Below, one piece after another: positions 26,492-52,072 of a stretch of 64,000 bases of DNA. The position numbers were made by a program, and so were the translations under genes. The stretch is from Phyllobacterium sp. T1293 (GTDB taxonomy: Bacteria; Pseudomonadota; Alphaproteobacteria; Rhizobiales; Rhizobiaceae): positions 3,105,001 through 3,169,000 of the forward strand of contig NZ_CP088273.1 in NCBI RefSeq assembly GCF_020731415.2, in the 5' to 3' direction. Each line of letters begins with the position of its first letter. Position 1 is the stretch's first letter. The notes under the pieces were generated by a model. The model searched no databases. It worked only from the letters and a program-made list of their open reading frames with translations, and was not told the origin of the DNA.

Positions 26492-27526
26492 TTAAGCTGC
26501 GAGCTGCTTGGGCTGGATAAGCCCGCGCGCCACCAGAAGCTCGGCGATCTGAATGGTGTTAAGTGCAGCACCCTTGCGCAGATTGTCGGAAACAATCCAA
26601 AGCGACAGGCCATTCTCGACAGTGATGTCCTCGCGGATACGCGAAATATAAGTCGCATCTTCACCGGCTGCCTCGTAAGGCGTGATGTAACCGCCATCTT
26701 CATGCCGGTCGATAACAAGGCATCCTGGAGCATCGGACAGGATATCGCGGGCCTCCTCTGCGCTCATCGGGCTTTCGAACTCAATGTTGACAGCTTCCGA
26801 GTGGCCGATAAAGACCGGCACGCGCACGCATGTTGCCGTCAGCTTGATCTTGGGATCAAGCATCTTCTTGGTCTCTGCAACCATCTTCCACTCTTCCTTG
26901 GTGTAACCATCTTCCATGAAGACGTCGATGTGCGGAATGACGTTGAAGGCGATGCGCTTGGTAAACTTCTTGGCCTCGACGGGATCAGCAACAAAGACAG
27001 CGCGTGACTGTTGGAAGAGTTCGTCCATGCCATCCTTGCCGGCCCCGGAAACGGACTGGTAGGTGGAGATGACAAGACGCTTGATTTTTGCCTTGTCGTG
27101 CAGTGGCTTCAGCGCCACGACGAGCTGGGCAGTCGAGCAATTCGGGTTGGCAATGATGTTCTTCTTGGTAAAGCCGACAATCGCATCGGGATTTACCTCT
27201 GGAACGATCAGCGGAACGTTGGAATCGTAACGCCATGCGGAAGAATTATCGATGACGACGCAGCCCTGCGCACCAATCTTCGGGGACCATTCCTTGGAAA
27301 TATTGCCGCCAGCCGACATCAGGCAGATATCGGTATCGGAAAAATCATAGGTGTCGAGGGCTTTGACCTTCAGTGTACGGTCGCCAAAGGAAACTTCGGT
27401 ACCCTGTGACCGGCGCGAGGCAAGCGCAACAACTTCACTCACCGGAAAGCCGCGCTCTTCCAGTATTGTCAACATTTCGCGGCCCACATTGCCCGTGGCA
27501 CCTACAACCGCAACCTTGAAACTCAT
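26492..27526 (-). CDS. asd: Aspartate-semialdehyde dehydrogenase
   Basis: A 344-residue enzyme reducing aspartyl phosphate to the semialdehyde, the branch point for lysine/DAP, threonine and methionine. VAVVGATGNVGREMLTILEE is the NADP-binding start, ASRRSQGT follows, IANPNCSTAQLV carries the catalytic Cys, and STYQSVSGAGKDG matches the substrate site. ATG 27526 has AGGAG eight bases upstream; a longer in-frame start is rejected. A long leader with an attenuator-like structure precedes it. Confidence 0.97.
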   Translation of the reverse strand: MSFKVAVVGATGNVGREMLTILEERGFPVSEVVALASRRSQGTEVSFGDRTLKVKALDTYDFSDTDICLMSAGGNISKEWSPKIGAQGCVVIDNSSAWRYDSNVPLIVPEVNPDAIVGFTKKNIIANPNCSTAQLVVALKPLHDKAKIKRLVISTYQSVSGAGKDGMDELFQQSRAVFVADPVEAKKFTKRIAFNVIPHIDVFMEDGYTKEEWKMVAETKKMLDPKIKLTATCVRVPVFIGHSEAVNIEFESPMSAEEARDILSDAPGCLVIDRHEDGGYITPYEAAGEDATYISRIREDITVENGLSLWIVSDNLRKGAALNTIQIAELLVARGLIQPKQLAA

Positions 27527-27559
27527 CTGTGCTATCTCCTGTCCCTCACCGCTCTCTGC

Positions 27560-27608
27560 AAAAAACCCGCTGGCCACTGCGGGTCTTTTCCCCCGGGCCG
27601 GACCCGGG
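27560..27608 (-). terminator. Candidate transcription attenuator in the asd leader
   Basis: Read on the minus strand: a GC hairpin CCCGGG-TCCGG-CCCGGG (27608-27592), then terminator stem ACCCGC/GCGGGT (27584-27579 with 27570-27565) followed by six T, 33 bases before the asd start. CGGGTC of the first hairpin (27606-27601) can instead pair with GACCCG of the terminator (27585-27580), so the two structures exclude each other. Confidence 0.75.
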
Positions 27609-27632
27609 AGGGGGCGAGCAGGCCAAGGGAAA

Positions 27633-27752
27633 TCAGACCGTTTTGGTGGTCGTTTTGGCCGGCATTTTGGTGGAAAGAACAGACGCGCCTGCGCATCCGG
27701 CATGAAAGCCGGAACCGCTCGTCAAAAAGTGTGCAGTTGATTCGCTGCTCAC
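27633..27752 (-). CDS. Putative 39-residue leader peptide of asd (Thr/Lys/Met-rich)
   Basis: A GTG-initiated ORF of 39 codons, with AAGGAG seven bases upstream. It begins VSSESTAHFL and ends STKMPAKTTTKTV; of the last 12 residues five are Thr, three Lys and one Met, the end products of the pathway that asd feeds. The stop is 25 bases before the first GC hairpin of the attenuator. This composition is that of a leader peptide for ribosome-mediated attenuation rather than a functional protein. It is not visible as a longer ORF and was found by reading the leader. Confidence 0.7.
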   Translation of the reverse strand: MSSESTAHFLTSGSGFHAGCAGASVLSTKMPAKTTTKTV

Positions 27753-27776
27753 GGGGCGTCTCCTTAACCTGACACG

Positions 27777-27804
27777 CTTGTATCCGCTTTCCAAAAAGAG
27801 TCAA
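27777..27804 (-). promoter_or_regulatory. Candidate promoter of the asd leader transcript
   Basis: TTGACT (27804-27799), a 16-base spacer and TACAAG (27782-27777), placing transcription start just before the leader-peptide ribosome site. Sigma-70-like by eye only. Confidence 0.5.
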
Positions 27805-28074
27805 TTGTCCATGCAAAAGATAAGAATATGTCGTGTTACACACAATTTTGGACTTTTGCTGCCAAAAGCAGTCTTTGCTTTCGTGAATATTTGTTCAACA
27901 CTTGGGCGGTGCATGGGGTGCATGACCTTTGGGGGGAGAGTTCCGGAGGACATTCACCGGCGTGAGATCAGTTGAGCCAATGGGCTTGGCCAATGAAATC
28001 CTGCGCAGTGACAAAACTGAGGATATGACCGGACCTTGGGGCCGGGCAAATGCTGTTTTCTGGGAGGAATAGAA
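27805..28074. other. Intergenic region between the asd leader and the MHS transporter
   Basis: About 270 bp. It must hold the promoter of the transporter on the plus strand; no riboswitch or clear operator was recognised, only a few short A/T-rich stretches. Confidence 0.4.
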
Positions 28075-51881: not shown

Positions 51882-52072
51882 AATCGTTAAAAAAGCGTAA
51901 TATTTATGCATTTTGCGACCGTTTGGTGGCCCAACACGCGATCTTGAGTAAAACAGGACTTGTTATCGCCTTGTTGAATCCCCATAATTCTCGGCAAGGC
52001 ATGCTGGGGTCCCGCCAGCGGCGCCTGGGAATAACCCCCGACACCCGACGGGACGTAGCAATGAGGAAAACC

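Follow-up and report, generated by a model that had tools for sequence, protein, structure and literature searches.

What does the short open reading frame (ORF) ahead of asd do? On the minus strand of a 64,000-nucleotide stretch of Phyllobacterium sp. T1293 DNA (below, the window), a 39-codon ORF rich in threonine (Thr) and lysine (Lys) at its end precedes the gene for aspartate-semialdehyde dehydrogenase, which we take to be asd and whose enzyme makes the intermediate from which the routes to lysine, threonine, methionine (Met), and cell-wall diaminopimelate branch. The original prediction, made from this sequence, proposed an attenuator responding to Thr, Lys, or Met. In our assessment, the element is more likely than not a ribosome-mediated attenuator that senses the charging of Thr-tRNA and Lys-tRNA and controls asd chiefly at translation initiation. 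The fuller proposal, a dual Thr/Lys attenuator widespread in one order and acting on asd translation initiation by 1:2/2:3/3:4 stem logic, with AAA as the lysine sensor, stands at about even chances.

The leader ORF and its conservation

The promoter, the AAGGAG site seven bases before a GTG, the 39-codon ORF, and the hairpins are all present in the sequence as predicted, and Thr, Lys, or Met indeed occupy nine of the last 12 leader residues. For comparison, we used 80 named asd upstream regions (the best 80 of 577 confirmed loci) and hand-chosen regions from 60 of 121 genomes of the window's family, 60 of 146 genomes with a match from its order, which we take from the named loci to be Hyphomicrobiales, and 40 of 88 genomes with a match from other orders of the class. 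Of the 60 family regions, ten duplicate named loci, and order regions L115 and L120 were dropped, as automatic orientation failed, a T/K-rich ORF being visible in both; 4 of the remaining 58 belong to the window's own family. A leader was defined as an ORF with at least six T/K among its last 14 residues, a cut-off set after the first sequences had been viewed.

The comparison shows that the Thr/Lys leader ORF before asd is conserved beyond chance. It is present in 80/80 named loci, in 54/60 family regions (44/50 without repeats of named loci), in 40/58 regions of the order sample (36/54 without the own family), and in 3/40 genomes from other orders; at least six T/K are reached by only 11/1600, 7/1200, 3/1160, and 1/800 dinucleotide shuffles, respectively. 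At a cut-off of at least eight, 72 named, 46 family, 29 order, and 3 other-order loci are retained and no shuffles. By family, 21/31 other families of the order sample have the leader, or 22/32 counting the window's own, so that the Thr/Lys-rich C terminus, whose conservation in relatives had been put forward as the check, is kept in most sampled families of the order. In the host genome the pattern AARACNACNACNAARACN occurs once, at the asd leader locus. The family genomes without a leader at the threshold are L193, L210, L221, L227, L229, and L235; those of the order are L091, L100–L102, L105, L106, L119, L125, L126, L128, L129, L132, L135–L138, L140, and L141. Several genomes below the threshold still carry short ends with 3–5 T/K.

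Among 106 distinct family leaders, Thr occurs at positions −6, −5, and −2 in 96, 101, and 99, and Lys at −7 and −3 in 90 and 89, respectively. Thr and Lys are thus conserved as proposed; Met never exceeds 9 at any position, and was rejected as a leader signal. Lysine codons in the family leaders (L001–L080, L182–L241) are AAA in 293 cases and AAG in 27 (92% AAA), compared with 64 AAA and 1830 AAG (3% AAA) in asd itself at the named loci. The 43 leaders from the order and class samples have 73 AAA and 29 AAG.

Predicted competing stems between the leader and asd

Comparison supports three predicted stems, between the Thr codons and A', between A' and X, and between the CU-rich segment B and the GA-rich segment D near the asd ribosome site (coordinates in Table 1). 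The first of these, H1, joins GGCCAA in the late leader codons with TTGGCC after the stop, both present as predicted, and is backed by codon covariation in the family. Here, Thr and Val codons pair as GACC/GGTC in Phyllobacterium and Brucella kin, CACC/GGTG in Mesorhizobium, GACG/CGTC in Rhizobium, and AACC/GGTT in locus L240. Codon choice for one amino acid therefore tracks codon choice for another, and RNA pairing is the simple explanation. The GGCC beside these codons has a possible partner in the GGCC that follows the stop (in L040, CAGCC with GGCTG); the two are out of register in some leaders, e.g., L005 and L041.

Energy tests covered loci with 66–140 bases between the leader stop and asd (70–135 in equilibrium folding). 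The H1 region has −11.7 kcal/mol, compared with −7.9 on synonymous resampling and −9.8 with codons permuted within the leader; 33/100 leaders lie at or below the 5% level of synonymous resampling. The window's own H1 energy is not significant (16% of resamples are as good), and H1 is not supported outside the window's family.

H1 also bears on another explanation, in which the ORF encodes a nascent arrest peptide or small functional protein and the RNA stems are secondary. The end AKTTTKTV is common within the family, and Ala and Val are not pathway products, as such a peptide would have it; however, the N-terminal part varies, the ends differ in other families (TTKTTTTA, TPKTATTG), and H1 pairing accounts for the use of GCC for Ala and GTC for Val. 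We regard this explanation as highly improbable.

The predicted stems H1 and A':X share A' and hence are mutually exclusive. In a wide-window test, helices with own partners slightly exceeded those with swapped partners (19.52 vs. 18.02, 0/2000 permutations), and the test was later refined. The comparison shows complementarity for both A':X and B:D, and B:D carries an own-partner signal, suggesting that the asd ribosome site can be hidden by an alternative stem, with the limit that D lies well upstream of that site in L014 and L054. In both, strand D (GGAGAG) is retained, with an insertion between it and the asd ribosome site. Covariation was counted on 49 of 87 alignment rows, omitting the Rhizobium type and some divergent rows, because the whole-family alignment misplaces D between groups. 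For the Rhizobium type, RNAalifold matched B to AGAGAGC ahead of the start codon (30 or 31 of 31 per pair, almost invariant); in the other subgroup it chose a weak pairing of A' with the ribosome site, not B:D.

Within the leader ORF, the hairpin H0 has a best stem of at least 6 bp in 65/122 leaders vs. 18% of codon shuffles, and is centered at −72 nt from the leader stop (interquartile range −76 to −69, n = 99). Its pairing is kept while the sequence changes (CCGGCA/TGCCGG, GATGC/GCATC, TTCCGACG/CGTCGGAA); H0 is possibly a polymerase pause site.

These elements suggest the following mechanism. Transcription would start near 27770, and the leader would be translated. With Thr or Lys short, a ribosome would stall on the control codons, at positions 2 to 11 ahead of the stop; since it covers strand 1, H1 could not form, and the free strand 2 (A') would pair with strand 3 (X). 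As the A':X hairpin would hold B in its loop, B could not pair with D, and the asd ribosome site would be free for translation. With Thr and Lys plentiful, the ribosome would reach the stop, cover A', and depart; in the window's family H1 would then lock A', while H2 and B:D would form and hide the asd ribosome site. H0 may pause RNA polymerase, keeping it in pace with the ribosome. In this scheme we infer the ribosome stalling, the trapping during transcription, and which way control runs.

Table 1. Features of the asd leader region (positions in the window).
Feature	Position	Strand	Description	Basis
asd, aspartate-semialdehyde dehydrogenase	26492..27526	minus	ATG at 27526	proteins 82–99% identical in the 80 loci kept
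−35 element	27799..27804	minus	TTGACT	read in sequence; kept in family leaders
−10 element	27777..27782	minus	TACAAG, 16-base spacer	read in sequence
Leader ribosome site	27760..27765	minus	AAGGAG, 7 bases ahead of GTG 27752	sequence
Leader ORF	27633..27752	minus	GTG start, 39 codons, C-terminal end STKMPAKTTTKTV, stop TGA 27635–27633	sequence and conservation
H0	27696..27713	minus	TCCGGC-tttcat-GCCGGA, within leader ORF	proposed RNA polymerase pause hairpin
H1, stem 1:2	27621..27660	minus	GGCCAA from 27660, TTGGCC ending 27621; inner GACC:GGTC from Thr and Val codons	
Segment A' (strand 2)	27621..27632	minus	UUUCCCUUGGCC, directly after leader stop	
Segment B	27606..27614	minus	CCCCCUCCC, CU-rich strand	
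H2	27592..27608	minus	CCCGGG-uccgg-CCCGGG, B side with X	
Segment X (strand 3)	27587..27599	minus	GGCCCGGGGGAAA, partner of A' (ON) or part of H2 (OFF)	
H3	27560..27585	minus	terminator-like hairpin; T6 tail, not conserved	
Segment D (strand 4)	27543..27550	minus	GGUGAGGG, partner of B in relatives, two mismatches here	
asd ribosome site	27536..27540	minus	AGGAG	sequence

The promoter and the terminator were found by reading, and the −35 element also by conservation, because a consensus scan of the window listed neither the TTGACT/TACAAG promoter nor the T6 terminator before asd. TTGAC[ATC] occurs 100–230 nt ahead of the leader stop in 115/122 distinct family leaders. The original prediction pointed to Brucellaceae; the nearest asd protein is instead that of P. 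calauticae (Phyllobacterium; 99% identity), and the host genome (5.07 Mb) is Phyllobacterium-like. The ORFs flanking asd are presumably leuD-like and transporter-like. None of 4227 Rfam families matches 27400–27900 at E ≤ 1; elsewhere in the window, the Rfam ybhL leader RF00520 matches at 51996–52058 on the plus strand.

Folding, termination, and what decides between them

In a snapshot fold, used alongside full-length folding, the RNA ended after X, with the Thr codons covered or free. A':X then forms in 57/86 distinct non-Rhizobium-type family sequences with the codons covered and in 27 with the codons free; for the Rhizobium type the counts are 36/38 and 0, and for all 172 sequences, 122 and 51. 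With A':X enforced, the asd start opens more easily in 44/92 loci of the window's part of the family and less easily in 3; for the Rhizobium type, more easily in 28/41 and less easily in 1. The order-sample groups in the snapshot, enforced-A':X, and T-run counts had first held four members of the window's own family.

Several observations weigh against control by these stems. The leader is not found in 6/50 family, 18/54 order, and 37/40 other-order genomes. No own-partner signal in H1 energy emerges within groups (1.3, 1.1; outside the family −0.8), and the value is 0.1 with one sequence per family; A':X and B:D hardly vary in the Rhizobium type and yield none (Z = −0.1 and −0.6), and the permutation tests ignore kinship. 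Outside the family, the snapshot gives 20/32 whether the Thr codons are covered or free, and with A':X enforced the asd start opens more easily in 7 of 32 loci and less easily in 9; since H1 is not supported there, A' would need masking by a ribosome at the stop. In the window, B:D carries two mismatches, A':X is largely formed with the codons free (8.1 pairs vs. 12.0 covered), and the ON and OFF states differ by 0.35 kcal/mol. At full length, the mean equilibrium opening cost is 9.2 with no ribosome, 9.1 with a stalled one, and 8.0 with one at the stop (n = 170; in the window 9.2, 10.9, and 5.7), and at least 5 A':X pairs form in 11/172 stalled molecules. Because full-length molecules do not show the switch at equilibrium, the RNA would need to commit to one fold while it is still being transcribed and keep it, as in classical attenuators.

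The original prediction instead had a classical transcription attenuator, in which the stalled ribosome blocks H3 and polymerase reads into asd. The terminator stem with six T is indeed present, and the translational arm is weak in the window; however, the tail is not conserved in relatives. The comparison shows weak conservation of the putative terminator: a run of at least four T follows a hairpin in 31/94 loci of the window's part of the family, 0/41 of the Rhizobium type, 0/35 in other families of the order, and 1/3 in other orders, both T-runs among the 39 order-sample loci coming from the window's own family. No intrinsic terminator excluded by the 2:3 stem is found, and, as read from the sequence, A':X in the window does not involve the GC core of H3. 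Both strands of the proposed antiterminator, CGGGTC and GACCCG, are present, but the pairing is not kept by compensating changes, and it was rejected. In L152, L169, and L170, from other orders, a terminator-like hairpin farther downstream has a strand with which A' could pair, as the transcriptional model would have it, although only L170 has a run of at least four T. We consider this model unlikely. What stood of the earlier idea is a Thr/Lys leader with competing stems, and what did not are the proposed antiterminator pairing and the Met signal. The loci L152, L169, and L170 may represent a terminator-type version of the Thr/Lys leader for asd.

Rho-dependent attenuation would require no T-run: the C-rich stretch after the stop would be a Rho loading site masked by the stalled ribosome, with B:D adding polarity. 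Ribosome masking of a Rho loading site is known from tnaC, and the post-stop segment is C/U-rich in the listed sequences; however, the stretch is only ~30 nt long, and the A':X and B:D complementarity would be left unexplained. We regard the Rho model as quite improbable. Under control at translation initiation, the reading we prefer, termination may still share or take over the output in the window's lineage, because B:D is weak there and the T tail of H3 is good.

Comparison with known systems

The words asd and semialdehyde are absent from the main texts of PMC1273637, PMC2965389, PMC8632094, PMC6429828, and PMC11109978. Such a leader is likewise absent from the accessible portions of PMC4117421, PMC2965389, PMC1273637, PMC11109978, PMC8632094, PMC1262725, and PMC6429828, and present in that of PMC10117765. 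There, the Sinorhizobium meliloti small ORF SEP5, which has six Thr codons and three Lys codons close to its 3' end, lies in the 5' untranslated region of an "aspartate dehydrogenase" gene; it is translated and suggested as a possible leader peptide. The leader end KTTAKTTTKTV of L236 fits these counts, and we infer that SEP5 is the asd leader. In the excerpted text, SEP5 is called conserved only in Sinorhizobium, whereas the asd leader type is found in 22/32 sampled families, and no RNA mechanism is given (PMC10117765). The original prediction was not aware of a described asd attenuator of this form; within that text, this would hold for the RNA mechanism but probably not for the leader peptide.

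Within the searchable literature, four points are new: how widely the leader occurs, its proposed reading of both Thr and Lys with AAA codons, the competition among three predicted stems, and the evidence that places the conserved output near the ribosome site. If true, a Thr/Lys switch at the asd node would explain how the pathway is set in rhizobia and their kin, and would be a further case of a leader peptide governing amino-acid biosynthesis through translation, with many natural variants at hand for comparing one logic. Should terminator-type versions in other orders be confirmed, one leader would act at two separate stages of gene expression.

As in the E. coli thr leader (and those of trp, his, and ilv), a translated leader with codons for the product amino acid is predicted to choose between exclusive 1:2, 2:3, and 3:4 stems. 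Unlike the thr leader, the target here is asd, Lys joins Thr, the lysine codon is one rare in asd, and the last stem, which is conserved, sits close to the asd ribosome site rather than in a terminator. As in the translational attenuators of ermC and cat, a stalled leader ribosome would shift the stems and free the ribosome site of the next gene; the signal, however, would be amino-acid starvation read through codons, not a drug-bound ribosome. T-boxes, which are read by tRNA binding, have no leader peptide, unlike the asd leader. In the translational T-boxes of actinobacterial ileS, as presented in the available part of the source, amino-acid supply governs translation through alternative sequestor and anti-sequestor stems (PMC1262725), as would be the case for asd.
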